Part shown: in pieces, positions 19,489 to 36,287 of the stretch
Layout of the letters: each line of letters begins with the position of its first letter
Numbering within the stretch: the stretch's first letter is position 1
Origin: Cyanobium sp. CH-040
Lineage (GTDB): Bacteria > Cyanobacteriota > Cyanobacteriia > PCC-6307 > Cyanobiaceae
DNA length: 64,000 bases
Direction of reading: 5' to 3'
Assembly (NCBI RefSeq): GCF_024346135.1
Contig: NZ_JAGQCJ010000001.1
Coordinates: forward strand, 124,001-188,000
The notes under the pieces: model-generated
The model's input: only the letters and a program-made list of their open reading frames with translations
Told to the model about the DNA's origin: nothing
Database searches by the model: none
Made by a program: the position numbers and the translations under genes

Positions 19489-19886
19489 CGGGAGCGGGCC
19501 ATCAGCTCCCCCATCCAGCGCCGGGCGCGCTCGGCGTCGGCGAAGGGCAGATCCTTCTGCTCACCCCCGCCCACCAGCCGCAGACGGCAGGCGCCCTGCG
19601 CCTCCTCGGTGAGGGGCGCCTCGCCCGAGCGCAGGGCGAGCAGTTCCACCAGCTCCAGCTGCTTGATCACGAAGCTGTCCTCCAGCTGCAGCCGGCCGGC
19701 CTCGAAGCGGCTCCAGCTCAGCACCCCGTCCACCAGGCGCGCGGCTCCGCAGCCGTCCAGCTTCGCCAGCTCGGAGCCTTCCGCCCACTCCCGGAACAGC
19801 TGCTGCCGTCGGCGCTCCAGCCAGCCCAGGGCCGTGAGCAGCACGAACACCAGCAGCAGCGGCAGCCACAGCAGTCCGCGACTCAT
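19476..19886 (-). CDS. Single-pass membrane protein between ddl and ftsQ
   Basis: 136 residues from the ATG at 19886, whose bases overlap the ddl stop as ATGA. The N-terminal hydrophobic segment (about residues 5-22) is a membrane anchor, followed by a soluble domain with a paired-strand look ([11 protein letters not shown], then [10 protein letters not shown]). I do not recognise a named family. Coupling to ddl and ftsQ suggests an envelope or division role, by context only. Confidence 0.7.
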
Positions 19887-21079
19887 CGCCCCAGATCTCC
19901 CGCGAGCAGGGTGTGGCGGCATTCTCCCGCCGCCCGCACCAGTTCGTGCACGAGCGCATCGAGTGCAACACCACTGGCCTGCCAGAGCATCGGATACATG
20001 CTCTGGCTGGTGAAGCCCGGCAGGGTGTTGATCTCGTTCAGCCAGAGCTGGCCGCCGGCCTCGTCGTAGAAGAAATCCACCCGGGCCAGCCCCTGGGCGT
20101 TCACCGCCTCGCAGGCCTGGATGGCCATGGCCCGGGCCCGCTCGGCCACCGCCTCCGGCACCACGGCGGGGATCACGGTGTGGCTCCTGCCCTCGCTGTA
20201 CTTGGTGTCGTAGTCGTACCAGTCGGCGTCGAAGCGGATCTCGCCCAGCACCGAGGCCTGCAGCGGGGCACGGCCGCCGCCCTTGACTGCGCACTCCAGC
20301 TCCCGGGCCGTCACCCCCTGCTCCACGACGATGCGGGGATCGAGGGCGGCGGCGGCGCGCAGTCCCGCCAGCAGCCCGGCACGGTCGGTGGCCTTGCTGA
20401 TCCCCACCGAGGAGCCCAGGTTTGCGGGCTTGATGAAGCAGGGAAAGCCGAGCTGCCGCTCCAGGCGGTCGAGCAGCCCGGCCGGCTCAGAACCCTGTTC
20501 GGCGTCCAGCTCGCTGGCCTGGACGCAGGCGTAGGGCACCTGGGGCAGACCGGCGGCGGCGAAGGCGGCCTTCATGGCCTGCTTGTCCATGCCCACCGCC
20601 GAGCCCAGCACCCCCGAGCCCACGAACGGCACCTGCATCAGCGTGAACAGGCCCTGGATGGTGCCGTCCTCGCCGTTGGGACCGTGCAGCACCGGGAACC
20701 ACACGTCGACGGTCCCGGCGCCGTCGGGGAAGCCGCGGAAGCCGCCCGCGCCGAGGGAGGAGCCGGCCCGGGCGGCGGCCGCCGCCAGCTGCTCGGCGGA
20801 GGCCGGCGTGCCCTGCTGCAGCACCGCCTCGGCCAGATCCGCTCCCCACCAGCGGCCCGCCGGATCGATGTAGAAGCAGCGCAGCGTGTAGCGCTCCAGG
20901 TTGGCGCCGCTGCTGAGGGCGCGGCGCACGGTGGCGGCCGAGCGGATCGAGACCGGGTGCTCGCCGGATGCCCCCCCGAAGATCAGGCCGACGCACACCG
21001 GCTGCAGCCGGGGTGGGGCGGGATCGGCTGGAGCGGAACTGGCGGCTGCAGGCATCGGCGGACTGAGGGACGCAGCCAC
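19883..21079 (-). CDS. ddl: D-alanine--D-alanine ligase
   Basis: ATP-grasp enzyme making D-Ala-D-Ala for peptidoglycan. Motifs in order: [11 protein letters not shown] near the N-terminus, [38 protein letters not shown], and [10 protein letters not shown] with metal ligands. The length is normal (398 with an Ala-rich N-terminal extension of about 25 residues; a later start is possible). It is coupled to the small membrane protein gene by an ATGA overlap and lies 40 bases downstream of miaB. Confidence 0.95.
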
Positions 21080-21119: not shown

Positions 21120-22547
21120 TCAGGCCAGTGTGCCGCTCAGGGAGAAGGCGCGCACCTCCTCGATCCGCACGTTCATCAGCTCGCCGGGCTGGATGGCGGT
21201 GCCATCGGGCCGCTGGCCGGGGAAGAAGGTGAGCCGGTTGGTGCGGGTGCGGCCCATCACCTGGTTGGGATCCTTGGGATTGGTTCCCTCCACCAGGATC
21301 TGCTCCACCCGGCCGGCGTAGCGGGCGCTGCGCTCCCTGGCTTTCTTCTCCACCAGGGCGTTGAGCTCCCGCAGGCGCTCCACCTTCACCTCCTCGCTGA
21401 GCTGGTCCGGCCAGGTGGCGGCGGGGGTGTTGGGCCGCGGCGAGTAGGCGGCGGTGTTCACCTGATCGAAGCCGATCTCCTCGATCAGATCGAGGGTGCG
21501 GCGGTACTGGGCGTCGCTTTCGCCGGGGAAGGCCACGATCACATCGGCGCTGATCGCGGCATCGGGTATGCGCTCGCGGATGCGCTCGATGATGCGGCGG
21601 TAGCGATCCACCGTGTAGCCGCGGGCCATCGCCTTGAGCACGGCGTCGTCGCCGCTCTGGAAGGGGATGTGGAAGTGCTCGCACACCTTGGGCAGATCGG
21701 CGCAGGCATCGATCAGCCGCTCGGTGAAATAGCGGGGGTGGCTGGTGGCGAAGCGGATCCGCTCGATGCCTTCCACGTCGTGCACATGGTGCAGCAGGTC
21801 GGTGAGGGTGTGCTGGCGGCGGCCTTCGGGCGTGATGCCGGGCAGGTCGCGGCCGTAGGCGTCGATGTTCTGGCCCAGCAGGGTGATCTCCCTGAAGCCC
21901 CGGGCGGCCAGCCCCTCCATTTCGAGCTTGATCGCCTCGGGCAGGCGCGACTGCTCCCTGCCGCGCACCGAAGGCACCACGCAGTAGGTGCAGCGCTCGT
22001 TGCAGCCGTAGATCACGTTCACCCAGGCGCACACCTGGCTGTCGCGGCGGGCGGTGGTGATGTCTTCGAGGATGTGGTGCTCGCCTGTGGCCACCACCTG
22101 CTGGCCCTGCTCCACCTGGGCCAGCAGGGTGTCGAGCCGGTTGGCGTGCTGGGGCCCCATCACCAGATCCAGCTCGGGCACCCGGCGCAGCAGCGATTCG
22201 CCCTCCTGCTGGGCCACGCAGCCGGCCACCACCAGGGTGAGGTGGGGGTTCGCGCGCTTGCGCCGGGCCTGGCGGCCCAGATAGCTGTACACCTTCTGCT
22301 CGGCGTTGTCGCGGATCGTGCAGGTGTTGTAGAGCACCAGATCGGCGCTGTGTTCGTCGGTGCCGGCCCGATAGCCCATCGCTTCGAGGATCCCGGCCAT
22401 GCGCTCGGAATCCGCCTTGTTCATCTGGCAGCCGAAGGTGGTGATCCAGTAGCTGCCGCGGCCCACGCCCGCCTGGGAGGGGCGGGCCTGGGGCTCAGGA
22501 GCCGGAACCGGAGCTGCGCCCGGTGCTGAGGAGAGGGTGGCGGTCAT
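21120..22547 (-). CDS. miaB: tRNA-2-methylthio-N6-dimethylallyladenosine synthase
   Basis: 475 residues. The N-terminal UPF0004 domain carries three cluster cysteines (FGCQMN, NTCTIRD, AGCVAQQ). The radical SAM motif CNERCTYC lies in [21 protein letters not shown]-terminal TRAM domain ends the protein. It modifies A37 of tRNAs that read codons starting with U. It is in the minus-strand run between the glutaminase fusion and ddl. Confidence 0.95.
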
Positions 22548-22586: not shown

Positions 22587-24428
22587 TCAGCCCTGCTCGA
22601 GCAGCAGCAGCTGCTGATTGGTGCGCCCCAGCTTGCGGGCCAGATCCTGGTGCAGCGCCAGCAGCAGGTCGATCACCACCTGGGGCTGCTCCCGCTCCAG
22701 CCGGTCGAAGGTGCTGCGGGTGAGCACCAGACAGCTGCCCGGCTCGTCGGCAACCACATCGGCCGTGCGCGGGGAACGGGTGAGAAAGGCCATCTCGCCG
22801 AAGGACACGCTGGGACTGAAGGTGGCGAAGCGCAGGGGCTTCTCCGCCACCGGCGGGCCGAGCACGGCGCTGAACAGCCCCGATTCGATCAGGAACACCT
22901 CGTCTCCGGCATCGCCCTGCCGGCACACCAGTTCTCCCTGCGCGAAGCTGCGCCGCTCCAGCAGCGGCTCCAGCTGGCTGCGCGTCTGCGGTGGCAGCAG
23001 TTCGAGCAGACCCACGGTGCAGGTCTGGGGCGGCTGCTCGCCCGCCTCCCGCAGCAGGGCCTCCAGGAGCATGTCCTCGGCCGCCTCCAGGCCCCGGTCC
23101 AGGCTTCCGAAGTACTGGCCCTCCTTGGCCAGCTGGCCCTCGCCCTGGGGCCAGAACTCCCGCAGGTGTTCACCGCGGCAGAGCAGGCAGGGCACGTCCA
23201 GCTTGGCGAGGTCGTCGATCTCCTCCCGCAGCAGTTCGGCGTCCACCCGGGGCAGGGCCAGCACCTGCTGCAGATCGATCACCAGGATCGCGCCCGCACT
23301 CGCCTTGCTCTGCATCTCCGCCAGCAGTTCCTCCGCGGCGGCGAAATCGAGCACCCCCTGGGCCTGGAGCACATGGATGCGGTCGCCATGGCGATCCAGC
23401 TGCTGGCTCTCCTGCTCGCTGCGCCAGCGTCTTGAGCGGCGCCGCTGGGCGGTGGTGGCCGAGCGGATCGTGGTGCCGGCGCGGGAGGGCTGGTTGAACA
23501 GATGCAGCTGCAGACGCTCGGAGATCTCCTCGCACACGGCGATGCCACGGCTGGAGTTGCCGTAGCTGTCAAGGGGCGGGGAGTACACCGCCAGCCCCAG
23601 ACGGCCGGGCACCACCGCCATCACCCCACCGCCCACCCCGCTCTTGGCGGGCATGCCGACGTTGTAGAGCCACTGACCGGTGTAGTCGTACATGCCGCAG
23701 CTGCCCATCACCGCCAGCACGTTGGTGGTGATGTCGGGATCGAGCACCTCGGTGCCGGTGACGGGATTGCGCCCCTGGCAGGCCAGGGTGGCGGCCATCA
23801 CCCCCAGGTCCTGGCAGGTGACCGACACGGCGCACTGGCGGAAGTAGAGCTGCAGGCCCGGTTCGGGGTTGGTGTTGATGATGTCGAAGTTGCGCAGCAG
23901 ATGGCCGATGGCCCGGTTGCGGTGGCCCGTATCCCGTTCGGAGCGGAACACCGACTCGTTGACGTCGAGCCGGCGGCCCGCCATGTCGGAATAGAAATCC
24001 AGCAGCAGTGTTTCCGCGCGCTCCGGATCGAAGGCCATCACCTGGGCGGTGGTGGCGATTGCCCCGGCGTTGATCATCGGGTTGCGGGGAATGCCGGTCT
24101 GCGGATGCAGGCTGATGGCGTTGAAGGCATCGCCGGAGGGCTCCACACCCACTTTCGCCTCCATGTAGGCGTCGGAGTGGAGCTTGAGCGCCAGGGCGTA
24201 GGTGAAGGGCTTGGAGATCGACTGGATGGTGAATTCCTTTCTGGTCTCTCCGATCTCGTAGATGCGACCGTCGGTGGTGGCGATGACGATGCCGAAATCC
24301 TTCGGGTTGGCCTTGCTCAGCTCGGGGATGTAATCAGCGGGCTTGCCGTCGTCGAAGTCGCGGTACTTGGCGTGCAGATCATCCAGAATCCTCTGAATCG
24401 CATCAGCGGTTCTCCCGGGGTCTGGCAT
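22587..24428 (-). CDS. glsA: Glutaminase fused to STAS and cyclic-nucleotide-binding domains
   Basis: 613 residues. Residues 1-310 are a complete serine-dependent glutaminase: QSISKPFTY contains the catalytic Ser-x-x-Lys, and NPMINAGAI, YNVGMPAKSGVGGG and the NSSRG region complete the active site. It converts glutamine to glutamate plus ammonia. After a basic linker (RRRSRRWRS) comes a STAS-like domain (about 345-450, including AGAILVIDLQQV). Residues about 480-605 form a cyclic-nucleotide-binding domain (GELVCRQGDAGDEVFLIESG, then FGEMAFLT). The fusion suggests that activity or location is regulated by cAMP/cGMP or partner binding; ligand binding is inferred, since the key Arg of the phosphate cassette (PRTADV) is present but untested. 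Confidence 0.92.
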   Translation of the reverse strand: MPDPGRTADAIQRILDDLHAKYRDFDDGKPADYIPELSKANPKDFGIVIATTDGRIYEIGETRKEFTIQSISKPFTYALALKLHSDAYMEAKVGVEPSGDAFNAISLHPQTGIPRNPMINAGAIATTAQVMAFDPERAETLLLDFYSDMAGRRLDVNESVFRSERDTGHRNRAIGHLLRNFDIINTNPEPGLQLYFRQCAVSVTCQDLGVMAATLACQGRNPVTGTEVLDPDITTNVLAVMGSCGMYDYTGQWLYNVGMPAKSGVGGGVMAVVPGRLGLAVYSPPLDSYGNSSRGIAVCEEISERLQLHLFNQPSRAGTTIRSATTAQRRRSRRWRSEQESQQLDRHGDRIHVLQAQGVLDFAAAEELLAEMQSKASAGAILVIDLQQVLALPRVDAELLREEIDDLAKLDVPCLLCRGEHLREFWPQGEGQLAKEGQYFGSLDRGLEAAEDMLLEALLREAGEQPPQTCTVGLLELLPPQTRSQLEPLLERRSFAQGELVCRQGDAGDEVFLIESGLFSAVLGPPVAEKPLRFATFSPSVSFGEMAFLTRSPRTADVVADEPGSCLVLTRSTFDRLEREQPQVVIDLLLALHQDLARKLGRTNQQLLLLEQG

Positions 24429-24536
24429 CGCAGCGCGCTCTATACCCCAGGATCACACTCCCCGGACCGGCGTATCTTCTGTGGCAATCGCTACACCGGG
24501 CCGGGCTGCAGCGTCCGCCGTGCCAGGTTTGGGCCC

Positions 24537-24632
24537 CAGCCGCCACCCCAGCCGCCACCCCAGCCGCCACCCCAGCCGCCACCCCAGCCGCCACCCCAGC
24601 CGCCACCCCAGCCGCCACCCCAGCCGCCACCC
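24537..24632. repeat. 12-bp tandem repeat, eight perfect copies
   Basis: CAGCCGCCACCC is repeated eight times without a mismatch, followed by a partial degraded unit. It lies between divergent genes, ending 16 bases before the ATG of the epimerase gene. The unit is a multiple of three, so it would encode PQPP or SRHP repeats, but no in-frame start codon lies upstream for the epimerase, so it is probably untranslated leader. Confidence 0.9.
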
Positions 24633-24647
24633 CAGCTGCCTCAGCCG

Positions 24648-25742
24648 ATGCGCTGCCGTCTGCACCGTTTCCCGCTCACCAAGGCCGTGCCCCTGGCGAT
24701 CAGCCGCGGCACCACCACGGCGGTGGAGCACCTGCTGGTGGAACTGGAGCACGACGGCGTCACCGGCCTGGGGGAGACCGGGGGGTTCGACACCGGCCAC
24801 CGCCGCCATGACACCGAGGCGATCGCGGTGGAGCTGGAGGCGATCGCCCCGCGGCTGGAGGGTCTGTCTCCCGAACCGCTGCAGGTGCTGGACCCCCTGC
24901 TGGCGGAGCTCTCGCCACCGGCGCGCTGCGGCCTCGATCTGGCCCTGCACGACTGGTGGGGCCGGCGGCTGGGGCAGCCGCTGCACCGGCTCTGGAGCCT
25001 GGATCCAGGCGCCTGCGCCGCCACCAGCGTCACCCTGGGGCTGGCGCCGCCCGCGGCTGTCCTGGCGCGGCTGGAGCGCTGGTGGGCCCAGCTGCCCGCC
25101 AGCCGCATCAAGCTCAAGCTGGGCAGCCCCGACGGCCTCGACCACGACCGCCGGCTGCTGGAGGTCGTGGCCGGGGCCATCGAACGGCGCCGCCAGGCCA
25201 CGGGCGGCCCCTGCGAGCTGCAGGTGGATGCCAACGGCGGCTGGGATCTGCCGGCCGCCCGGTTCATGCTGGAGCCCCTGCAGCGGGCCGGGGTGGTGCT
25301 GCTGGAGCAGCCGCTGCCCCCCCTGGCCGAGCCCGAGCGCGATGCCGCCGGCTTCGCCGCCCTCAGGCCCCACTGCCCCATGCCGCTGGTGGCCGATGAG
25401 AGCTGCTGGGATCTGCCCGACCTGCTGCGCCTGGCCCCCCATGTGGATGGGGTCAACATCAAGCTGCTCAAGAGCGGCGGGCTGGCGGAGGCGCTGCTGA
25501 TGGCCCGCACGGCCCGGCGGCTGGGGCTCGGGGTGATGCTGGGCTGCTACTCGGACGCCAGCCTGCTCAACGGCGCCGCCGCCCAGCTGCTGCCGCTGGT
25601 GCGCTGGCCCGATCTGGACAGCCACCTCAACCTGGTGGACGATCCCTTCGTCGGTCTGGAGCTGCGTGGCGACATCGTGATGCCAGCGAGTGCTCCCGGG
25701 CTGGGGATGGCGCTGCGGGAGCGCCTGGGGGAGCCATGCTGA
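24648..25742 (+). CDS. dgcA: Enolase-superfamily dipeptide/N-acyl-amino-acid epimerase, DgcA-like
   Basis: 364 residues. The muconate lactonizing-type barrel residues are visible: the Lys pair in SRIKLKLG, metal ligands in VDANGGW (Asp), LLEQPL (Glu) and VADES (Asp), and the opposing Lys in NIKLLKSGG. This set is characteristic of L-Ala-D/L-Glu epimerases. The next gene encodes a DUF1611 protein, the DgcN partner. Studied DgcN-DgcA pairs acetylate D-glutamate and racemise the N-acetyl product, so this gene could serve D-glutamate use instead of peptide epimerisation. Start and stop are clear, overlapping the next gene by seven bases. Confidence 0.82.
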   Translation: MRCRLHRFPLTKAVPLAISRGTTTAVEHLLVELEHDGVTGLGETGGFDTGHRRHDTEAIAVELEAIAPRLEGLSPEPLQVLDPLLAELSPPARCGLDLALHDWWGRRLGQPLHRLWSLDPGACAATSVTLGLAPPAAVLARLERWWAQLPASRIKLKLGSPDGLDHDRRLLEVVAGAIERRRQATGGPCELQVDANGGWDLPAARFMLEPLQRAGVVLLEQPLPPLAEPERDAAGFAALRPHCPMPLVADESCWDLPDLLRLAPHVDGVNIKLLKSGGLAEALLMARTARRLGLGVMLGCYSDASLLNGAAAQLLPLVRWPDLDSHLNLVDDPFVGLELRGDIVMPASAPGLGMALRERLGEPC

Positions 25743-26788
25743 GGGCCGATCAGCGGGTGGTGCTGCTGCAGCACGGCGGCCTGGCCGACCTCTCCGGCAA
25801 GACCGGCCTGGCGATGCTGCGCTACCGCTCCGGTCCGATCGTGGCCGTGGTGGATCCGGCCCACGCCGGCCGGCCGTTGCTGGAGGTGAGCGGCATCGAC
25901 CGGCCGGTGCCGGTGGTGGGCTCGCTGGCGGCGGCTCTGCCCTTCGAGCCCGAGGTGGCGGTGGTGGGCCTGGCCCCCTCGGGCGGCCGGCTGGCGCCGG
26001 AGGTGCGGGCCGATCTGGCGGCTGCGCTGGCGGCCGGCCTGAGCGTGGCCAGTGGCCTGCACAGCCGCATCGGCGACGACCCCGAGCTGGCGCCGCTGCG
26101 GCGCGATCCGGCCTGGATCTGGGATCTGCGCCGGGAGCCGCCCGGGCTGGCGGTGGCCAGTGGCCGGGCGGCGGAGCTGCCCTGCCGGCGGCTGCTGGCG
26201 CTGGGCAGCGACATGGCCGTGGGCAAGATGAGCGCCTGTCTGGAGCTGGAGGCGGCTGCCCGCCGGCAGGGGCTGCCGGCCCGCTTCGTGGGCACCGGCC
26301 AGGCCGGCATCCTGATCAGCGGCGCCGGTGTGGCGCTCGATGCCGTGCGGGTCGACTACGCGGCCGGTGCGGTGGAGGCGGCGGTGCTCGAGGCCGGCGC
26401 GGATCTCGGTTCCGGCGGCCTGCTGCTGGTGGAGGGGCAGGGATCCCTGGCCCATCCCGGCTCCAGCGCCACCCTGCCGCTGCTGCGCGGCAGCCAGCCC
26501 ACCGACCTGCTGCTGGTGCACCGGGCCGGTCAGCGGCACCTCAAGGGGCTGCCGCAGCTGCCGATCCCACCCCTGGCAGAGCTGATCGCCGCGGCGGAGG
26601 CCCTGGCGGCCCTCGGCCGTCCGGATGGTCTGCGGCCGAAGGTGCGGGCCGTGGCGCTGAACACCGCCCACCTCGATGCCGGGGCTGCGGATCAGGCCTG
26701 CACCGCGGTAACGGCGGAAACAGGTCTGTTCTGTGTCGATGCGGTGCGTGGTGGCGCTTGCACGCTTCTCGATGCGCTGCGTCGCTGA
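25736..26788 (+). CDS. dgcN: DUF1611 protein, DgcN-like N-acyltransferase
   Basis: 350 residues. An N-terminal domain (VVLLQHGGLADLSGKTGLAMLRY) is followed by a P-loop-like ALGSDMAVGKMSACLEL near residue 161 and GTGQAGILISGAGV. The C-terminal domain includes LLVEGQGSLAHPG and ends in a conserved Ala/Gly-rich helix. This is the DUF1611 architecture; some members (DgcN) are D-amino-acid N-acetyltransferases. It overlaps the epimerase gene by seven bases, a strong operon signal. The substrate is inferred from the pair. Confidence 0.82.
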   Translation: MLRADQRVVLLQHGGLADLSGKTGLAMLRYRSGPIVAVVDPAHAGRPLLEVSGIDRPVPVVGSLAAALPFEPEVAVVGLAPSGGRLAPEVRADLAAALAAGLSVASGLHSRIGDDPELAPLRRDPAWIWDLRREPPGLAVASGRAAELPCRRLLALGSDMAVGKMSACLELEAAARRQGLPARFVGTGQAGILISGAGVALDAVRVDYAAGAVEAAVLEAGADLGSGGLLLVEGQGSLAHPGSSATLPLLRGSQPTDLLLVHRAGQRHLKGLPQLPIPPLAELIAAAEALAALGRPDGLRPKVRAVALNTAHLDAGAADQACTAVTAETGLFCVDAVRGGACTLLDALRR

Positions 26789-26929: not shown

Positions 26930-28072
26930 ATGGCTGAGAAACAGCAAGTTGTTGTTCTTAACTGGAAAACGGCCACGAACACTGTGCTGGACGGCAAGGG
27001 CGGCTGGTTCAACGAAGGTCGCCCAACTCAGCTGGTGATCCAGTCGCAGTTCCGAAACGGTGAATGGAAGCGACCTCAGAATTTCGTGTTCAAGAACTGG
27101 AAGCTGAATGGCTCGATCCGCGTCCTTGGTGCAGGCAGCAGTTCCTCCGCTCCGGTGAAGGAATCTTCCTTCAGCCTTGGCCACACCGAGAGGATGCAGG
27201 AGGCGGCTCCAACCAATATCACCTTTTCCGGGCTGACCCTCAATGCCAACCGCAAGATCCCAGTGATCGTTGGACCAGGAGCAACAGGAGTCACCGTTCG
27301 CAATTCAACGCTGAGAGGCAGCAGTCGAAGCGTTGGCGTTTATCTCGATGCCGAAAGTGCTAACAACAGGATCACCGGTAACCGCTTCAGGCTGGACCTT
27401 GATCGGGAGGTGATCGCGGTTGATGGCTCGCGCCGGAATGTGATTTCTGGTAACACATTTTCCCGTCTTCCCTGGGGTGGAGTTTATGTGTATCGCAATT
27501 GCGGCGAGAGAGGCATGGTCAGGCATCAAAAGCCCACGGAGAACCGCATCAGATCGAATACCTTTAATCTCGATAGTCTGCGTAGCTTTTGGGAAGGAAA
27601 TCCGATCAATGGCCGTCAATTTGAGTATCGCTATGCGATCTGGCTTGGCTCGCGTGAGTCAAGGCCTCCATCCTTCTGCGGCGAGGATGACGGTTTCCCG
27701 TTTGGCAGTAGTATTGATAATGGAGACTTTGCTGATGACAATATTGTCAGTGGCAATATCCAAAAGGGATCTTCGAGGGGTTATCTGCTGAAGATTGACG
27801 AGGATCTGGGTATTGGGGGCTATGACAAGTTCGTCAAGGACGATGGGCTCAATAACCGTATCGATGTTGGATCCTCCGCCCAGTCGAAAGCCCGGACCCG
27901 TCTCAACGGCGACACAAAGCGTTTCAGGCGTCTTGGGGTGGGGTCCGCGAACTTGGGTCTCAAGCCCTCTGCGACGCCCAGCCGGGACGCTGACAGGCTG
28001 CTTGCTGCCATGGCTGGCCGCGATTGCGGTTGCCTGTCTCTGTCAGGCACGTCTGAACTTTGTCTGGCCTGA
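26930..28072 (+). CDS. Right-handed parallel beta-helix (pectate-lyase-like) protein
   Basis: 380 residues with repeated short strands of the form N-x-I-x-x-N-x-F (NNRITGNRFRLD, RNVISGNTFSRL, ENRIRSNTFNLD, DNIVSGNIQ), the signature of parallel beta-helix coils about 22-25 residues long. The ATG at 26930 has AAGGA six bases upstream. No signal peptide is seen at the N-terminus (MAEKQQVVVLNW). The C-terminal 50 residues are irregular and Ser/Cys-rich. G+C is lower than in flanking genes. Such proteins bind or cleave polysaccharide; the catalytic residues cannot be assigned. Confidence 0.72.
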   Translation: MAEKQQVVVLNWKTATNTVLDGKGGWFNEGRPTQLVIQSQFRNGEWKRPQNFVFKNWKLNGSIRVLGAGSSSSAPVKESSFSLGHTERMQEAAPTNITFSGLTLNANRKIPVIVGPGATGVTVRNSTLRGSSRSVGVYLDAESANNRITGNRFRLDLDREVIAVDGSRRNVISGNTFSRLPWGGVYVYRNCGERGMVRHQKPTENRIRSNTFNLDSLRSFWEGNPINGRQFEYRYAIWLGSRESRPPSFCGEDDGFPFGSSIDNGDFADDNIVSGNIQKGSSRGYLLKIDEDLGIGGYDKFVKDDGLNNRIDVGSSAQSKARTRLNGDTKRFRRLGVGSANLGLKPSATPSRDADRLLAAMAGRDCGCLSLSGTSELCLA

Positions 28073-28353: not shown

Positions 28354-28764
28354 TTGCGTTCCGCGGTCCGAGGGTCCTGGCTGGGGGGACTGGTGCTCAC
28401 GGCCGTGGCGGCGGCCGGGCTGGCCCTCAGCAATCCGAAGCAGGCGGCGTTCGAGCGCTTCGCCGCCGCCCATCTGGTGGATGTGATCGAGCGCGAGGTG
28501 TGCGAGGGCGATGTGCTGCCGCCGCTGGTGCGGCTGGCGCTGCCCAACTGCGCCGAGCTGGTGCAGGCCCAGAACGTGGCCATCGGCGCCCTGGTGAGCC
28601 GCCAGACCCGCCGCTGGAACCTCGGTGTGTGCAGTCTGTACCGCACCGATGTGGGCGGTCAGCAGGTGCTGGTGTGGCAGGTGCCCCGTTTCCGCGCCAC
28701 GGTGCTCGGGGTGGCGGGCCGCTTCCTGGTGCTTCACGCCAGTGTCGACGACGAGGGGGCATGA
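28354..28764 (+). CDS. DUF4359 family protein with N-terminal membrane anchor
   Basis: 136 residues from a TTG at 28354; a GTG at 28393 is an alternative. A hydrophobic segment (residues about 10-26) leads into SNPKQAAFERFAAAHL and later SLYRTDV, the pattern of the cyanobacterial DUF4359 family. Function is unknown. The stop codon overlaps the start of the amidohydrolase as ATGA, so they are likely co-translated. Confidence 0.75.
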   Translation: MRSAVRGSWLGGLVLTAVAAAGLALSNPKQAAFERFAAAHLVDVIEREVCEGDVLPPLVRLALPNCAELVQAQNVAIGALVSRQTRRWNLGVCSLYRTDVGGQQVLVWQVPRFRATVLGVAGRFLVLHASVDDEGA

Positions 28765-30062
28765 CCGCCGCTCCCGCCCGGCTGCGCCTGCGTCTGCCCA
28801 GGGCCCTGGTGGATCCTCGGCTCACGGGCCTGCCCGTGGGCCACGGCGATGGTCTGGTGGCGCTGGAGCTGGAACAGCGCCAGGGCCGGATCACGGCCCT
28901 GAGGCCCCTGGAGGCTGGCTCCCGGACCGGGGACGCGCCGGCGCTGCCCCTGGCCCTCACTCCCCTGGTGGAGCCCCACGCCCACCTGGACAAGTGCTTC
29001 ACCGCCGCCGCCTTCCCCAACCCGGAGGGCACCATCGCCGGCGCCCTGGCGGCCAACCGCTGTGAGGACGGGCAGCGCACCTACGAGCAGGTGCTGGCGC
29101 GGGGCGAGCGGGCCCTGGATCGGGCCTGGCGCCATGGTGTGCGCGCCATCCGCAGCCACATCGACAGCGGTGGCGCGGCGGCCCGTCCCAGCTGGGAGGC
29201 GCTGCTGGAGCTGCGCCGGCGCTGGGCCGACCGGGTGCACCTGCAGCTGGTGGCGCTGGTGCCCCTGGCCCACTGGAGCAGCCCCGAGGGGGAGGCTCTG
29301 GCCCGCTGGGTGGCCGATCACGGCGGCTGGCTCGGGGGCGTGCTGGGCCCGCCCTACGGGCACCTGCGCTCCGACCGCGATGCCCTGGCCACGCTGCTGG
29401 GGCTCGCCGAGCGGCTGGGCACCGGAGTGGATCTGCACGTCGATGAGGCTGAGGACCAGCCCGGCCGGGGGGTGGATCTGGTGAGCGCGGTGGCCAGCGA
29501 CCTGCGCAGCGGCGTGCCGATCACCTGCAGCCATGCCGCCAGCCTCGCCCTGCTGGGGCCGCGGCGGCAGGAGCGGCTGGCGGAGCGCCTGGCGGCGGCC
29601 GGCATCGCCGTGGTGGCCCTGCCGCTCACCAACCTCTGGCTGCTGGGCCGACGGCCGGAGCGCACGCCCTGGCTGCGGCTGCAGGCGCCGATCCGCAGCC
29701 TGCAGCGGGCCGGGGTGCTGGTGGCGGTGGGCGGTGACAACGTGCAGGATCCCTGGTATCCGGGCGGCGACTTCGACCCGATCGAGCTGCTGCGGCTCTC
29801 CCCGCTCACCAGCCACCTCTGGCCGGCCACGCGCCAGGGCCTGACGCCGTTCAGCACCGCTCCGGCGCGGCTGCTGGGGCTGGAGTGGGATGGGGTGGTG
29901 CGTGAGGGCGGCCCTGCCGATCTGGTGCTGCTGGACGCGGGCAGCTGGCCCGAGCTGCTGGCCCGCACCCCCCAGCGCCTGGTGCTGCGCGCCGGTCGCG
30001 CTCTGCCCCCCCCGGCCCTGCAGCAGCCCGCGGCTCTGCTGCCGGCCGCCAGCATGGGCTGA
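28761..30062 (+). CDS. Amidohydrolase, cytosine-deaminase-like
   Basis: 433 residues. Metal-site elements of the amidohydrolase superfamily are in order: PHAHLDKCFT near residue 74 (HxH), VDLHVDEAEDQ near 230 (His), CSHAASL near 260 (His), and GGDNVQDPW near 330 (catalytic Asp). HLDKCF and SHIDSG are specific to the CodA/cytosine deaminase-like subgroup. It would hydrolyse a C-N bond in a cyclic nitrogen compound; the actual substrate is not predictable. It overlaps the DUF4359 gene and is 15 bases upstream of a flavin oxidoreductase, so the three likely form an operon. Confidence 0.85.
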   Translation: MTAAPARLRLRLPRALVDPRLTGLPVGHGDGLVALELEQRQGRITALRPLEAGSRTGDAPALPLALTPLVEPHAHLDKCFTAAAFPNPEGTIAGALAANRCEDGQRTYEQVLARGERALDRAWRHGVRAIRSHIDSGGAAARPSWEALLELRRRWADRVHLQLVALVPLAHWSSPEGEALARWVADHGGWLGGVLGPPYGHLRSDRDALATLLGLAERLGTGVDLHVDEAEDQPGRGVDLVSAVASDLRSGVPITCSHAASLALLGPRRQERLAERLAAAGIAVVALPLTNLWLLGRRPERTPWLRLQAPIRSLQRAGVLVAVGGDNVQDPWYPGGDFDPIELLRLSPLTSHLWPATRQGLTPFSTAPARLLGLEWDGVVREGGPADLVLLDAGSWPELLARTPQRLVLRAGRALPPPALQQPAALLPAASMG

Positions 30063-30077
30063 ACCTCCACCGCCGCC

Positions 30078-31466
30078 ATGGAACCCGCTGCCAGCGATGC
30101 CCTGATCGACGCGCTGGCGCAGGATCTGCGGCGGCAGGACCCTGCGCTGCAGCTGGTGACGGCGGCCGAGGCCGGCGAGCTGGAGCGCCTCTCGCGTGAT
30201 TACCACGACTACTCGCCGGTGCTGGTGCAGCGCTTCGCCGGCAAGCGGGCCCAGCTGGCGGTGCTGGCCACCGGCGTGGAGCAGGTGCGTCTGGTGGCCG
30301 GGGCCTGTGCCCGCCACGCTGTTCCCCTCACCGTGCGCGGTGCCGGCACCGGCAACTACGGCCAGTGCGTGCCCCTGGCCGGCGGGGTGGTGCTGGATGT
30401 CACCGGCCTCAACCGGCTGCGTCATCTGGAGCCCGCCAGCGGCGTGATCGAGGTGGAGGCCGGCGCCGTGATGGCCGCCATCGACCAGCAGCTGGCCCCC
30501 CATGGCCGTGCCCTGCGGCTGCTGCCCAGCACCTGGCGCAGCGCCACCATCGGCGGCTTCATCGCCGGCGGCTCGGGTGGCATCGGCTCGCTGCGCTGGG
30601 GCTTCCTGCGCGATCCCGGCAACCTGCTGGGGCTGGAGGTGGTGACGGTGGAACCGGAGCCGCGGCTGCTGCGCCTGGATGCGGCCGCCAGCGCCCCGCT
30701 CAACCATGCGTACGGCACCAACGGCATCCTCACCGCCCTGCGGCTGCCCACCACCGAGGCGGTGGCGTGGGAGCAGCTGGTGGTGGGCTTCGCGCGCTGG
30801 GAGCAGGCCCTGGAGGCGGCCCGCGCCCTGCCGGCCACGGCCTTCCTGCTCAATGGCCTCACGCTGCTGGAGGCTGCGATCGCGGCGCGCTCCCCCTGGC
30901 CGGCCGGCTGCCCGGCGGCGGCCGACGGGGAGCACCGCCTGCTGCTGCTGGCGGCCCCTGACGCCCTCGAGCCCCTGCCCGGCTGGCTGGCGGCGCGCGG
31001 CGGCGCGCTGGTGTGGCAGGCCCCCCAGGGCGCCAGCCGCGGCCTGCCGCTGCGGGAGCTGTGCTGGAACCACACCACCCTGCACTGGCGGGCCCAGGTG
31101 AGCGGCTGGACCTACCTGCAGCTGCTGCTGCCCGATCCCCCGGACCCCTGCCTGGCGGCCCTGCGCCGGCGCTGGGGCGACGATCTGCTCTGGCACCTGG
31201 AAGCGGTGCGCCAGCAGGGAGCGCCCCGGCTGGCGGCCCTGCCGCTGCTGCGCTGGCAGGGGGAGGAGCGCCTGCAGGAGCTGATGGACCAGGCCCGGTC
31301 TCTGGGGGCGGTGCTGTTCAACCCCCACGTGCTCACCGTGGAGGATGGCGGGCTGGGGGTGGTGGATGCCGATCAGGTGGCCGCCAAGGCGGCCTACGAC
31401 CCCGCCGGCCTTCTCAACCCCGGCAAGCTGCGCGGCTGGGCTGCCGCTGATCCGGACACCATCTGA
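30078..31466 (+). CDS. FAD-binding oxidoreductase, FAD_binding_4/GlcD-like
   Basis: 462 residues. The N-terminal FAD domain of the vanillyl-alcohol-oxidase type shows VRGAGTGNYGQCVPLAGGVVLD, with the covalent/phosphate-binding loop region STWRSATIGGFIAGGSGGIGSLRWG near 150-180. The C-terminal half has LTVEDGG, DPAGLLNPGKL near the end, typical of lactate/glycolate oxidase-like enzymes. It follows the amidohydrolase by 15 bases. The substrate is unknown. Confidence 0.85.
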   Translation: MEPAASDALIDALAQDLRRQDPALQLVTAAEAGELERLSRDYHDYSPVLVQRFAGKRAQLAVLATGVEQVRLVAGACARHAVPLTVRGAGTGNYGQCVPLAGGVVLDVTGLNRLRHLEPASGVIEVEAGAVMAAIDQQLAPHGRALRLLPSTWRSATIGGFIAGGSGGIGSLRWGFLRDPGNLLGLEVVTVEPEPRLLRLDAAASAPLNHAYGTNGILTALRLPTTEAVAWEQLVVGFARWEQALEAARALPATAFLLNGLTLLEAAIAARSPWPAGCPAAADGEHRLLLLAAPDALEPLPGWLAARGGALVWQAPQGASRGLPLRELCWNHTTLHWRAQVSGWTYLQLLLPDPPDPCLAALRRRWGDDLLWHLEAVRQQGAPRLAALPLLRWQGEERLQELMDQARSLGAVLFNPHVLTVEDGGLGVVDADQVAAKAAYDPAGLLNPGKLRGWAAADPDTI

Positions 31467-32065: not shown

Positions 32066-33352
32066 TCACTCTGACCCCCCCGGCTCCGCGGTGGCCAGCA
32101 GCTGGCCGATCAGGTAGAGCGAGCCGGCAACGATCACCGGACCATGGGTGGGTCCGGCCATGGCCCCCTCGCCGGCGGCCGCGTGGATGGCGCCGGCGGC
32201 ATCCGGTGCCGCCTGCAGCTGCTCGGCCAGGGGGGCTGCAGGCCCGGCGCGCAGGGTTTCGTTCAGCTGCGCCAGCGTCCAGCTGGCGTGCCCCGGCACC
32301 GGCACGATCCAGGCCCGGTCGCCGGGGCCCAGCAGGGCCTCCAGAATCTGCGGCCCCTCCTTGCTGGCCAGCATCCCCAGCACCCACCGCCGCGGCCCCG
32401 GCGGCAGCCCGTGGCGCGCGGGGTCGGCATCCAGCTCTCGGCGCAGGGCACGGGCCGAGGCGGGGTTGTGGGCGCCGTCGAGGAGCAGGGGAATCCCCCG
32501 CCAGCGCCGTCGCTCCAGCCGGCCGGGCCAGCGGGCGGCGGCGAAGCCGCGGGCGATGGCGGCGTCGCTGATCGACCAGCCCCGTTCGGCCAGGGCCCGC
32601 AGCATGCCCAGGGCCACGGCGCCGTTGTGGGCCTGCACCGCCCCGTGCAGCCCGAGGGGCCAGCGCCGGCGGTCCAGCGGCGGCTGCCAGCGCAGGTCGG
32701 CCCCCACGGCTGCGGCCCGGGCGCGCAGCACGGCTTCCGCCTGGGGCTGCTGGGCCGCGCTGATGGCCACGGCTCCGGTCTGCAGGATGCCCGCCTTCTC
32801 GGTCGCGATCGCGGCCACGTCCGGCCCCAGCACCTCGGCGTGATCCAGGTCGATCGCCCCGAAGCCCACCACCTCCCGGCCGGGATGGCAGCTGGTGGCA
32901 TCCAACCGTCCGCCCAGCCCCACCTCCAGCACCACCAGCTCCTGGCCGCTGTCGGCGAAGGCCAGGAAGGCCGCCGCCGTCACCAGCTCGAAGGGCGTCA
33001 GTCGGTGACGGCGGGCCGCTGGCCCGGCGGTCAGCAGGTGCCGCCGCAGCTCGGCGGCGGCGATCGGGTCGCGCCCCAGCCGGATGCGCTCGGTCCAGCT
33101 CACCAGATGGGGCGAGGTGTAGAGCCCGGCCCGGATGCCGGCGGCCAGCAGGGCCTCGTGCACCAGGGTGCAGATCGAGCCCTTGCCGTTGGTGCCCGCC
33201 ACCTGCACGGCCGCGAAGCGCCGCTCCGGATGGCCCAGTTCCGCCAGGGCGGCCCGCAGCCGCTCCAATCCCAGATCCACGCCGCGATGGCTGAAGGGCT
33301 CGATCAGGTCCGCGAAGGGATCGGCGGGCCCCAGGTGGGCTCCCTCAGGCAA
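32066..33352 (-). CDS. folC: Bifunctional folylpolyglutamate/dihydrofolate synthase
   Basis: 428 residues of the Mur-ligase fold. The P-loop is AGTNGKGS near residue 51, followed by TSPHLVSWTERIRLG, the LEVGLGGRLDATS segment with metal ligands, IDLDHAEVLG, and LLDGAHNP in the C-terminal domain. It adds glutamate to dihydropteroate or folates. Its start overlaps the end of argD by eight bases on the same strand. Confidence 0.93.
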   Translation of the reverse strand: MPEGAHLGPADPFADLIEPFSHRGVDLGLERLRAALAELGHPERRFAAVQVAGTNGKGSICTLVHEALLAAGIRAGLYTSPHLVSWTERIRLGRDPIAAAELRRHLLTAGPAARRHRLTPFELVTAAAFLAFADSGQELVVLEVGLGGRLDATSCHPGREVVGFGAIDLDHAEVLGPDVAAIATEKAGILQTGAVAISAAQQPQAEAVLRARAAAVGADLRWQPPLDRRRWPLGLHGAVQAHNGAVALGMLRALAERGWSISDAAIARGFAAARWPGRLERRRWRGIPLLLDGAHNPASARALRRELDADPARHGLPPGPRRWVLGMLASKEGPQILEALLGPGDRAWIVPVPGHASWTLAQLNETLRAGPAAPLAEQLQAAPDAAGAIHAAAGEGAMAGPTHGPVIVAGSLYLIGQLLATAEPGGSE

Positions 33353-34538
33353 GGCTGAGCAGGGCCCGCTCCAGGCGCTCCACCGCCAGACGCAGGTGCT
33401 TGGGCTTGATGGTGAGCGGCGGCACGAAGCGCACCACGCTGGCGCCGGCCGGCACCAGCAGCAGCCGCTCGGCCAGGGCGGCCTTCACCACCTCCGGGGC
33501 GCTGGGGGCCTCCGCACTCAGCACCAGTCCCCGCAGCAGGCCCCAGCCCCGCTGGCCGGCCAGCAGCAGGGGGTGACGGGTCACCAGGCCAGCGAGGAGT
33601 GCCTCGAGCTCCTCGCCCATCCGCTGCACGTGGACGAGCAGATCGCGTCTCTCGATCTCCGCCAGCACCGTGAGCCCGGCCCGGCAGGCGAAGGGGTTGC
33701 CGCCGAAGGTGCTGGCGTGGTCGCCGGGGCGGAAATGGTCCACGGCCTGTTTCACGGCCAGGGCGCCGATGGGGATGCCTCCGCCCAGGCCCTTGGCCAG
33801 GGTGAAGGCGTCGGGCTCCACCCCCAGCTGCTCGTAGCCCCAGAGGCGGCCGCTGCGGCCCACGCCGATCTGCACCTCATCGAAGATCAGCAGGATGCGG
33901 TGCTGATCGCAGAGCTCACGCAGGCGCTGGAAGAAGCCCCGGTCCCCGGGGTTCACGCCGCCCTCGCCCTGCAGCGGTTCCACCAGCACGGCCGCAACCC
34001 GGGGCCCCTCGGCCTCGCATTCGGCCAGCAGCGCCTCGAAGGCGGCGGTGTCGTTGTAGGGGAAGTAGCGGAAGCCCTGCACCATCGGCTCGAAACCCTG
34101 GTGGTAGCGGGGCTGACCGGTGGCGGTGACCGCCGCCAGGGTGCGGCCGTGGAAGCTGGCCTGGGCCGTGAGGATCAGGGGCGGCCGGCCATCGGCGCCG
34201 CTGATGCCCCGCACGAGGCCGGCGTGCTTGCGGGCCAGCTTGATGGCGGCCTCGTTGGCCTCGGCGCCGGAATTGCAGAAGAACACCCGGTCGAAGCAGC
34301 TGTGCGCGGTGATCGCCGCCGCCAGCTGCTCCTGCTCGGGAATCCGGTAGAGGTTGGAGACGTGCTGCAGGCGCCCCAGCTGGCGGCTGAGGACCTTGCG
34401 CAGGCGCCGGTCGCTGTGTCCGAGGGTGCACACGGCGATCCCGGCGACGCAGTCGAGGTAGCGGTCACCGTTCGTGTCCCACACCCACACCCCCTTGCCC
34501 CGGGTGAGTGCCACCGGGAAGCGGGCGTAGGTGTCCAT
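33345..34538 (-). CDS. argD: Acetylornithine aminotransferase
   Basis: 397 residues from the ATG at 34538 (MDTYARFPVAL). The frame is open further upstream through the tRNA-Leu gene, which cannot be coding; a start slightly upstream of 34538 cannot be excluded. Class III PLP enzyme: FCNSGAEANEAAIKLARK, the cofactor Asp in LIFDEVQIGVGRSG, the PLP Lys in TLAKGLGGGIPIGA, and STFGGNPFA. It works in arginine synthesis and may also act in lysine synthesis. Confidence 0.93.
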   Translation of the reverse strand: MDTYARFPVALTRGKGVWVWDTNGDRYLDCVAGIAVCTLGHSDRRLRKVLSRQLGRLQHVSNLYRIPEQEQLAAAITAHSCFDRVFFCNSGAEANEAAIKLARKHAGLVRGISGADGRPPLILTAQASFHGRTLAAVTATGQPRYHQGFEPMVQGFRYFPYNDTAAFEALLAECEAEGPRVAAVLVEPLQGEGGVNPGDRGFFQRLRELCDQHRILLIFDEVQIGVGRSGRLWGYEQLGVEPDAFTLAKGLGGGIPIGALAVKQAVDHFRPGDHASTFGGNPFACRAGLTVLAEIERRDLLVHVQRMGEELEALLAGLVTRHPLLLAGQRGWGLLRGLVLSAEAPSAPEVVKAALAERLLLVPAGASVVRFVPPLTIKPKHLRLAVERLERALLSLA

Positions 34539-34603
34539 CACCGGATGGACGGGTTGGCAAGGCTCTTCGCCGGACTCCGGGGGGCCTGGGGCCGTGGTGG
34601 CGA

Positions 34604-34685
34604 TAGGAGCGGTGGGACTTGAACCCACATGCCCGAAGGCGCTCGATTTTGAGTCGAGTCCGTCTACCAATTCCGGCACGCTCCC
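34604..34685 (-). tRNA. tRNA-Leu (CAA)
   Basis: Class II tRNA on the minus strand with U8, a D arm containing GGTAGAC, anticodon stem CTCGA/TCGAG, loop CTCAAAA with anticodon CAA, a variable arm and T loop TTCAAGT. Acceptor GGGAGCG pairs with CGCTCCT, so the first pair is G1-U72 wobble, with A73 as discriminator. CCA is not encoded. It lies in the short gap between murA and argD. Confidence 0.93.
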
Positions 34686-34697
34686 AGTGCTGGGAGC

Positions 34698-36119
34698 TTA
34701 GGTGGGCAGGACGCCGTGGCCGGACCTGGCACTAGCCGGCAGGCGGGTGATCGATGCACCCACGGCGTTCAGCTTGGCTTCGAAGTCGGCGTAACCGCGA
34801 TCGAGATACTCAAGCCCGAACACCTCGGTGATCCCCTGGGCCGCCAGGCCGGCCAGCACCATCGCGGCCGAGGCGCGCAGGTCGGTGCCCTGCACCGGCG
34901 CTCCGCTCAGGCGGGCGACGCCCTCGATGACGGCGGTGTTGCCCTGGCTGCGGATCGAGGCGCCCATGCGCTGCAGCTCGGCCACATGCTGCAGGCGGTT
35001 CTCGAAGATCGACTCGGTGACCATGCTGGTGCCCTCGGCGGTGGCCAGCAGACTCATGAACGGCGCCTGCAGATCGGTGGGGAAACCGGGGAACGGCTGG
35101 GTGCGCAGGTCGACGGCGGTGAGGTGCTCGGCGGAGAGGATGATGCCGTCGCCGTCGGTCTCGATCCGGCAGCCGGCCTGCTCGAGCTTGCTGAGCACGG
35201 CGCAGAGATGGGTGGGAATCACCGGAGCGACCCGCAGCCTGGAGCGGGTGATGGCGGCGGCGAGCAGGAAGGTGCCGGCCTCGATGCGGTCGGGAATCAC
35301 GGCGTAGTCGGCACCGTGCAGGCGATCGACGCCGTCGATGAAGATCGTCGGGGTGCCGGCCCCGCGGACCCGGGCACCCATGGCGGTGAGCAGATCGGCC
35401 AGATCCACCACCTCAGGTTCAAGGGCGGCGTTCTCGATCACGGTCTCGCCGTCGGCGAGGGCCGCGGCCATCATCAGGGTCTCGGTGGCACCTACGCTCG
35501 GGCAGTCGAGCACGATCCGTGCACCCTGGAGGCGCCGGGTGGGACCGGGGATCGAGGCCGTGACCACACCGTGCTCGATGCTCACATGGGCGCCGAGGGC
35601 CTTCAGCCCCTTCACATGCTCCTCGACCGGGCGGCTGCCGATCTTGCAGCCGCCGGGCATCGGCACCCGCGCCGTGCCCATGCGCGCCAGCAGGGGGCCG
35701 ATGCAGAAGAAGCTGGCCCTGAGGCTGTTGACCAGTTCGTAGGGGGCGGCGGAGGAGTGGATGCCGGAGCCGTCGAGTTCGAGCGCATCGCCCTTGCGCT
35801 CCACGCGCCCGCCCAGGCTGAACAGCATCTCACCCATGCCGGCGATGTCGGTGAGGGCCGGCACGTTGCGCAGACGGATCGGGTCGCGGGTGAGCAGGCA
35901 GGCGGCCATCAGCACGAGGGCCGAATTCTTGGCGCCGCTCACGCGCAGTTCGCCGCTCAGGCTGTGACCGCCTGAGATGCGCAGAAAGGGGCGATCGTTG
36001 GTCACAGGAGAGTCGCCCGCAGCGGCTGCGGACTGGGCGCTGGTGAGGACGTCGGCAGGCTGGGCGGCGACAGGCTGGGTGGATGGGGGCACAACGGTGG
36101 GGACGGCGCTCTGGCTCAC
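34698..36119 (-). CDS. murA: UDP-N-acetylglucosamine 1-carboxyvinyltransferase
   Basis: First committed step of peptidoglycan synthesis. The conserved core begins at [22 protein letters not shown] (the Lys is catalytic), with the phosphoenolpyruvate-binding Cys in [15 protein letters not shown] near residue 150 and [10 protein letters not shown] further on. An N-terminal leader of about 45 variable residues precedes the domain. The longest frame starts at a TTG at 36173; I choose the GTG at 36119 (before SQSAVPT) but the exact start is uncertain. It is flanked by two tRNA-Leu genes. Confidence 0.93.
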
Positions 36120-36287
36120 GGTATGGACTGCCCCACGTCGCAATGTCGCCGCATGATGCCAACAAACGTCCAATCCGTCTAGACGGCCGCCGGGGGAACT
36201 GGCCGGGGCGCCGCAGCCTGCAGGCGGTCAGCGGAGGGCGGGCCGGCGATGTCCTACCCTTTGCAGGTCGCCTGAGGCGACAGCCAC

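Follow-up and report, generated by a model that had tools for sequence, protein, structure and literature searches.

A nearly obligate epimerase–DUF1611 gene pair in cyanobacteria is a putative distant cousin of the D-glutamate pathway DgcN-DgcA

A 64,000-nucleotide stretch of the Cyanobium sp. CH-040 genome (contig NZ_JAGQCJ010000001.1, positions 124,001 to 188,000; hereafter the window), from an assembly of 2.9 Mb in 27 contigs, encodes an enolase-superfamily epimerase directly followed by a DUF1611 protein (Table 1). An initial reading of the letters without database searches (the sequence-only reading) had noted that these two genes overlap by seven bases, that they lie divergently from the gene for a glutaminase fusion, and that ddl is close by. 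The coordinates bear out all three observations; the overlap spans exactly 25736-25742, and miaB lies between ddl and the glutaminase fusion gene. The same reading went on to propose that the pair is dgcA-dgcN-like and forms, with the glutaminase, a glutamate/D-glutamate module under cyclic-nucleotide control. Here we report that the epimerase–DUF1611 pair is a nearly obligate unit, almost always kept or lost together in cyanobacteria, that the glutaminase is an occasional neighbor and not part of this unit, and that the pair appears, on sequence comparison, to be a distant cousin of the known D-glutamate pathway DgcN-DgcA.

Table 1. Features of the window around the epimerase–DUF1611 pair (positions are those of the window; cNMP, cyclic nucleoside monophosphate; FAD, flavin adenine dinucleotide)
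Feature	Position	Strand	Remarks
ddl	19883-21079	-	
miaB	21120-22547	-	
Glutaminase–weak STAS–cNMP-binding fusion	22587-24428	-	PF04960 and PF00027 matches; divergent neighbor, judged outside the unit
12-bp tandem repeat CCCCAGCCGCCA, 8.9 copies	24534-24640		Divergent intergenic region, directly before the epimerase start
Enolase-superfamily (dipeptide-epimerase/DgcA-like) epimerase, 364 aa	24648-25742	+	PF13378/PF02746; start ATG 24648
Epimerase/DUF1611 reading-frame overlap, 7 bp	25736-25742	+	
DUF1611 (DgcN-like) protein, 350 aa	25736-26788	+	PF07755/PF17396
Right-handed beta-helix protein	26930-28072		Between the pair and tRNA-His
Cytosine-deaminase-like amidohydrolase	28755-30062		275 bits; cut-off, 403
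GlcD-like FAD protein (FAD oxidase)	30078-31466		Downstream of the amidohydrolase
argD-type acetylornithine transaminase beside murA	33345-34679 and 34698-36173	- (both)	

We surveyed a family sample of 201 genomes from the window's family, the window's own genome included, and a phylum sample of 146 genomes, using E limits of 1e-30 (phylum) and 1e-20 (family) for the epimerase and 0.001 for DUF1611. In the family sample, DUF1611 was found in 108 genomes and the epimerase in 105, and every one of the 105 epimerase-bearing genomes also carried DUF1611. The epimerase lay directly upstream of DUF1611 on the same strand, with match ends no more than 1.5 kb apart, in 104 of these 105 genomes; in the single nonadjacent case the two were on different contigs. 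The three family genomes with DUF1611 alone had only matches of a shorter profile span, typical of a second DUF1611 copy described below. Across the phylum sample, 46 genomes gave a DUF1611 match and 44 an epimerase match; Synechococcus elongatus, a control genome, also matched DUF1611. With three weak DUF1611 matches excluded (G124, G125, and G136; E above 1e-5), the epimerase was found in all 43 genomes that had a strong one, and in four phylum genomes both genes were present though not neighbors in the fetched stretch.

We also fetched 80 stretches, chosen by hand from the survey matches, which together contained 62 epimerase–DUF1611 pairs. Fifty-two of these pairs were no more than 60 bp apart, and 48 of the 52 overlapped, by 1 to 44 bp when the nearest start codon was taken as the start. 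The remaining 10 pairs comprised one fusion, which is left out of the overlap count, six more distant pairs (145 to 1,980 bp), and three in reversed order. In the fusion, from a genome of the same genus (G239), epimerase and DUF1611 form one 715-aa open frame (L065:6486-8633, reverse-complement coordinates). In another genome (G271), only an N-terminal piece of the epimerase and a C-terminal piece of DUF1611 are left, side by side, as if a single deletion had removed parts of both genes. Taken together, the co-occurrence, the adjacency and overlap, the fusion, and this double remnant are strong evidence that the two proteins have a joint function. Such a pair, whose members are jointly present or jointly absent in all but one of the genomes sampled in the phylum and have once been fused, points to a very clean two-gene function.

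The proposed module of glutaminase and pair did not hold up when linkage was surveyed in the family genomes. The glutaminase adjoined the epimerase, divergently and with match ends 175 to 317 bp apart, in 12 of the 105 pair-bearing genomes (seven genera); it lay elsewhere in others, and 59 had no glutaminase match. All 46 family genomes with a glutaminase also have the pair, but this co-occurrence may only reflect genome size, since both are missing from many family members with small genomes. A glutaminase frame of at least 600 codons was present in 33 family genomes, and in 22 of these no such frame adjoins the pair; the other 11 are linked cases, whereas the twelfth linked glutaminase (G332) has a shorter frame. 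In the window and in seven fetched relatives' loci, the linked glutaminase sits between miaB and the epimerase. Our conclusion is that an old insertion created this linkage, which has since been patchily kept.

The fusion protein itself combines a glutaminase domain (PF04960, 378 bits, residues 28 to 311) with a cyclic-nucleotide-binding (CNB) domain (PF00027, 60.7 bits, residues 492 to 577), and its middle part gives a STAS match below the cut-off (17.9 versus 22.6 bits). In the CNB domain, the FGE and PRTA residues aligned to the domains of the cAMP- and cGMP-dependent kinases (PKA and PKG) are kept. Together with seven PF00211 matches elsewhere in the survey of the genome, this makes cyclic-nucleotide control of the glutaminase fusion plausible. 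The CNB domain is on the glutaminase only, and the claim that cyclic nucleotides control the pair thereby loses its footing. A cyclic-nucleotide-controlled glutamate/D-glutamate module made up of glutaminase and pair could still appeal to these residues and PF00211 matches, to the divergent adjacency in seven genera, to the shared position next to miaB in the seven relatives' loci, and to the presence of the pair wherever the family has a glutaminase, but we consider it highly improbable, given the 59 pair-bearing genomes without the enzyme, the 22 genomes in which the long form is not beside the pair, and the fact that no shared regulator was seen. A second glutaminase is encoded in the same genome (G000:C24:99479-100333, in a 364-codon frame).

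The window epimerase matches the Pfam models MR_MLE_C (91.4 bits) and MR_MLE_N (38.2 bits). Its best NCBIfam model is NF042940 DgcA, at 149.7 bits against a cut-off of 400, followed by PRK15129 L-Ala-D/L-Glu epimerase (AEE), at 108.7 bits against a cut-off of 343, so that neither cut-off is reached. The protein retains KxK, the metal-binding D/E/D, the second-side K, and the DxD after strand 8, which we take to be the alpha-ammonium site of dipeptide epimerases; K155, K157, D194, E220, D250, K272, K275, D322, and D324 are invariant in alignment A2. The catalytic motifs are retained in nearly all of the 59 cyanobacterial relatives checked (30 from the family and 29 others), with 12 misses to the literal motif patterns: one in EQP, seven in NxKxxKxGG (summed over both groups), one in DLDSHLNL, and three in which the 20s loop does not have T. 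The cyanobacterial group also has motifs of its own, GCYSD (59/59) and DLDSHLNL (58/59). The AlphaFold model of the window epimerase has a pLDDT of 93.5; its top Foldseek match is 3iji (E, 1.3e-30), and a VIA alignment to 3q45 gave a Z score of 45.0 and a root mean square deviation of 1.8 over 348 positions. Dipeptide epimerases are thus the nearest solved folds, but N-succinylamino acid racemases and cycloisomerases follow close behind, and because these score nearly as high, the fold leaves the specificity (dipeptide epimerase or N-acyl amino acid racemase) unsettled. The window protein is like the dipeptide epimerases in fold, two-lysine chemistry, metal ligands, and DxD; it differs from them in that a DUF1611 partner is nearly always present, in that the AEE cut-off is missed, and in that the cyanobacterial group stands separate in the tree described below.

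Both halves of the Pfam domain match the DUF1611 protein, at 216.7 and 77.7 bits, and its best NCBIfam match is NF041892 DgcN (208.9 bits, short of the cut-off of 480). The closest Protein Data Bank (PDB) entries are 2obn (352.6 bits) and then 7xrj (142.3 bits). Published work on a deep-sea Shewanella and on Mariana Trench metagenomes describes DgcN-DgcA as a route from D-Glu to L-Glu (PMC10845958, PMC12363236). Cyanobacterial genes for L-Ala-D/L-Glu epimerase have been briefly mentioned (PMC3605383), and no published account of the epimerase–DUF1611 pair in cyanobacteria surfaced in our literature search, which covered few subscription papers. As references we used DgcN and DgcA of Pseudoalteromonas sp. 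CF6-2 (L142) and three annotated pairs (L143, L144, and L151). The window pair resembles these in the adjacency of a DUF1611 gene to an enolase-superfamily racemase gene, in the catalytic residues, and in the best NCBIfam models of both proteins, and in CF6-2 the two genes likewise overlap by 7 bp.

By analogy with this system, and with moderate confidence, we favor the reading that the cyanobacterial pair is a DgcN/DgcA-type two-enzyme racemization module. The reasons are the conservation of the unit, the co-occurrence, the natural fusion, and the retained catalytic residues, together with the DgcA and DgcN best matches, the recurrence of the pairing outside cyanobacteria (see below), and the role of DgcN-DgcA as a route from D-Glu to L-Glu. 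In such a module, the DUF1611 protein would modify a D-amino acid at its amino group, probably by N-acylation as in DgcN, and the enolase-fold enzyme would use its two lysines to remove the alpha-proton of the N-blocked product and put it back, presumably in the D-to-L direction; the resulting L form would then be hydrolyzed or used. The substrate would be an amino acid or small peptide, possibly D-Glu from peptidoglycan.

Several observations weigh against this reading. The gene order in the window, epimerase before DUF1611, is the reverse of dgcN-dgcA in all four reference loci, and both window proteins score well under the NCBIfam equivalog cut-offs of DgcA and DgcN. No LysR-type gene (DgcR) adjoins the window pair, whose neighbors are the glutaminase, miaB, and the beta-helix protein, but this feature is not universal, since a LysR gene stands beside dgcN in L142 and L144 and none does in L143 and L151. 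The P-loop-like part of the DUF1611 protein is insufficient alone to indicate an acetyltransferase. One phylum genome with 9% contamination (G035) has an epimerase match, at 36% identity, without a DUF1611 match. In the epimerase itself, two features of the DgcA/YcjG clade are lacking. Where that clade has a second basic residue in the 20s loop, after the ISRG turn, 30/30 family members and 26/29 other cyanobacteria have T, and none of the 59 cyanobacterial relatives has the PYxR motif of the DgcA/YcjG 50s loop; 27 of the 30 family members carry TG[HQ]R instead. Finally, in a quick epimerase tree of 52 rows, four of them partial PDB rows, DgcA forms one group (support, 100) with 4gfi and with YcjG, the Escherichia coli dipeptide epimerase.

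In the same tree, 16 cyanobacterial rows form a separate group (support, 100); L133 and L134, which come from another family of the phylum, lie apart. The branch to the epimerases of the window's family is long (1.05). The window epimerase is 25.8% identical to CF6-2 DgcA (26 to 31% over the four DgcAs), 32% identical to YcjG, and 31% identical to 4gfi, while CF6-2 DgcA and YcjG share 44.8% identity. A clade of DgcA and the 16 cyanobacterial rows without YcjG was rejected by the approximately unbiased (AU) test (p-AU, 5.2e-10), and we accordingly discarded the idea that the window epimerase is a DgcA ortholog. Of the earlier description of the pair as dgcA-dgcN-like, the homology and the very strict conservation as a unit therefore stand, whereas orthology of the epimerase to DgcA does not. 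For DUF1611, a quick tree of 119 rows put DgcN apart from the cyanobacteria, but a tree constrained to join the two was better by 50.5 log units (p-AU, 0.906), and for this reason we make no claim against DgcN orthology of the DUF1611 protein. A careful tree of 55 rows, in which the DgcN rows form their own 100/100 group, favors neither arrangement.

Because the epimerase loops differ from those of DgcA and YcjG, we leave undecided whether D-Glu is the substrate. The differences suggest, weakly, that the cyanobacterial epimerases have a different side-chain pocket. It is a distinct possibility, though short of probable, that the module acts on another D-amino acid or on an N-acyl or dipeptide substrate, as a result of divergence of its specificity loops in the cyanobacteria; this is a variant of the preferred reading, and the probabilities of the two overlap. 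Consistent with such a shift are the clade-specific GCYSD and DLDSHLNL motifs, the altered 20s and 50s loops, the long branch to the family's epimerases, and the VIA alignments, in which an N-succinyl-Arg/Lys racemase and epimerase structures containing Ala-Val or Arg-Lys dipeptides rank as high as the Ala-Glu enzymes. On the other hand, the arginine of the ISRG loop is kept in the cyanobacterial epimerases and could bind a carboxylate, and residue readings from alignments are weak evidence. The T at the position of YcjG R24 was at first taken as loss of Glu binding. We have downgraded this as a clean marker for Glu, because BsAEE R24 aligns elsewhere in the loop, next to the ISRG arginine, and that arginine is kept.

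The genome could supply more than one substrate. It encodes MurI and, away from the pair, an SH3b-NlpC/P60 endopeptidase close to the cyanobacterial AvPCP (PDB 2hbw, 196 bits), which has been described as an L-Ala-gamma-D-Glu endopeptidase (PMC2954226); D-Glu and L-Ala-D-Glu could therefore both arise. This relative of AvPCP/NpPCP is, however, neither linked to nor codistributed with the pair: 179 of the 201 family genomes encode it, so that it must also occur in the majority of the 96 that lack the epimerase, and for want of a specific link we rejected it as a dedicated supplier. The same distribution bears on classical recycling of murein dipeptides, in which the endopeptidase would free L-Ala-D-Glu, the epimerase would convert it to L-Ala-L-Glu, and DUF1611 would be an accessory, for example in an ATP-dependent modification. 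The presence of the AvPCP relative, the DxD of the epimerase, and the inclusion of 3iji and 3ijq with L-Ala-D-Glu among the nearest structures would all fit, but DxD does not discriminate because DgcA keeps it too, the AEE cut-off is missed by a wide span of bits, and the strict tie to DUF1611 is left unexplained. We regard this route as rather unlikely.

DUF1611 genes also occur beside an unrelated type of racemase. A second DUF1611 copy is frequent in the window's family, where 38 of 145 matches are not beside an epimerase; the window's genome, with one DUF1611 match, lacks it. A pyridoxal phosphate (PLP)-dependent, ornithine-racemase-like gene adjoins all 10 second copies fetched from the family and two more from elsewhere in the phylum, and DUF1611 overlaps or closely precedes it in these 12 loci (L064, L066, L069, L071, L078, L081, L087, L089, L091, L094, L123, and L126). 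Two such PLP racemases scored 294.2 and 375.7 bits against NF040742 Orr (cut-off, 480). We also scanned named genomes more widely and kept the best 80 loci; as similarity to a haloarchaeal query set the ranking, the proportions are not a census. By tblastn, a PLP racemase lies within 600 bp in 34 of these loci and an enolase-type epimerase in 24; two truncated epimerases at contig ends, recognized by eye, bring the latter to 26, and in the other 20 neither type was found by tblastn within that distance or then by eye. Haloarchaea, Chloroflexi, and other groups are among the carriers of the epimerase–DUF1611 pairing in these 80 loci. On a Haladaptatus plasmid (L147, 911-5865), a D-aminoacylase, a dipeptide epimerase, DUF1611, and a second epimerase lie in one run, a candidate complete route for N-acyl-D-amino acids.

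The operons with PLP racemases (such as L148, L150, L087, and L123) are thus like the window pair in that DUF1611 overlaps or adjoins a racemase gene, but their racemase is unrelated, and the careful tree sets their DUF1611 rows apart as a 100/100 group; in the quick DUF1611 tree, the switch of partner type is one change among the labeled rows. A PLP racemase requires a free amino group, whereas DgcA is named for acting on an acetylated one, so that the two partner types would fit opposite sides of an acylation step if DUF1611 acylates both times. This leads to a tentative and somewhat doubtful generalization, in which the DUF1611 proteins would form a broad family of N-acyltransferases or ligases that are specific for D-amino acids and serve two convergent modules, one whose enolase-fold partner works on the N-acylated side and salvages D-amino acids and one in which the D product of the PLP partner is trapped; many members of the window's family would carry both. 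If true, N-acetyl-L-glutamate or a similar product could feed cyanobacterial arginine synthesis directly. The pattern of two racemases makes a general role of DUF1611 directly testable. Knowing what the pair does would show whether D-amino acids are salvaged in cyanobacteria, and it would also test whether the name DgcN, from one Proteobacterial branch, fits the whole DUF1611 Pfam domain.

The order ftsZ-ftsQ-ddl-miaB<>epi-duf is common to the pair-bearing family loci and one other genome (L112) and was not found in the other fetched phylum stretches. Downstream of the pair, the amidohydrolase and the FAD protein keep their place in most family loci. We considered them as further pathway steps and rejected both, as neither was found next to the pair in the stretches fetched from the rest of the phylum and both are also set apart from it by the opposite-strand tRNA-His. 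The beta-helix protein has a recognizable copy at the same place in L072 only, among the fetched loci. The 8-mer GCGATCGC, which we take to be the cyanobacterial HIP1, occurs 497 times versus 4.4 expected in 40 stretches from other families of the phylum and is little enriched in the window (7 versus 3.4 expected) and in the window's family (66 versus 31.6).

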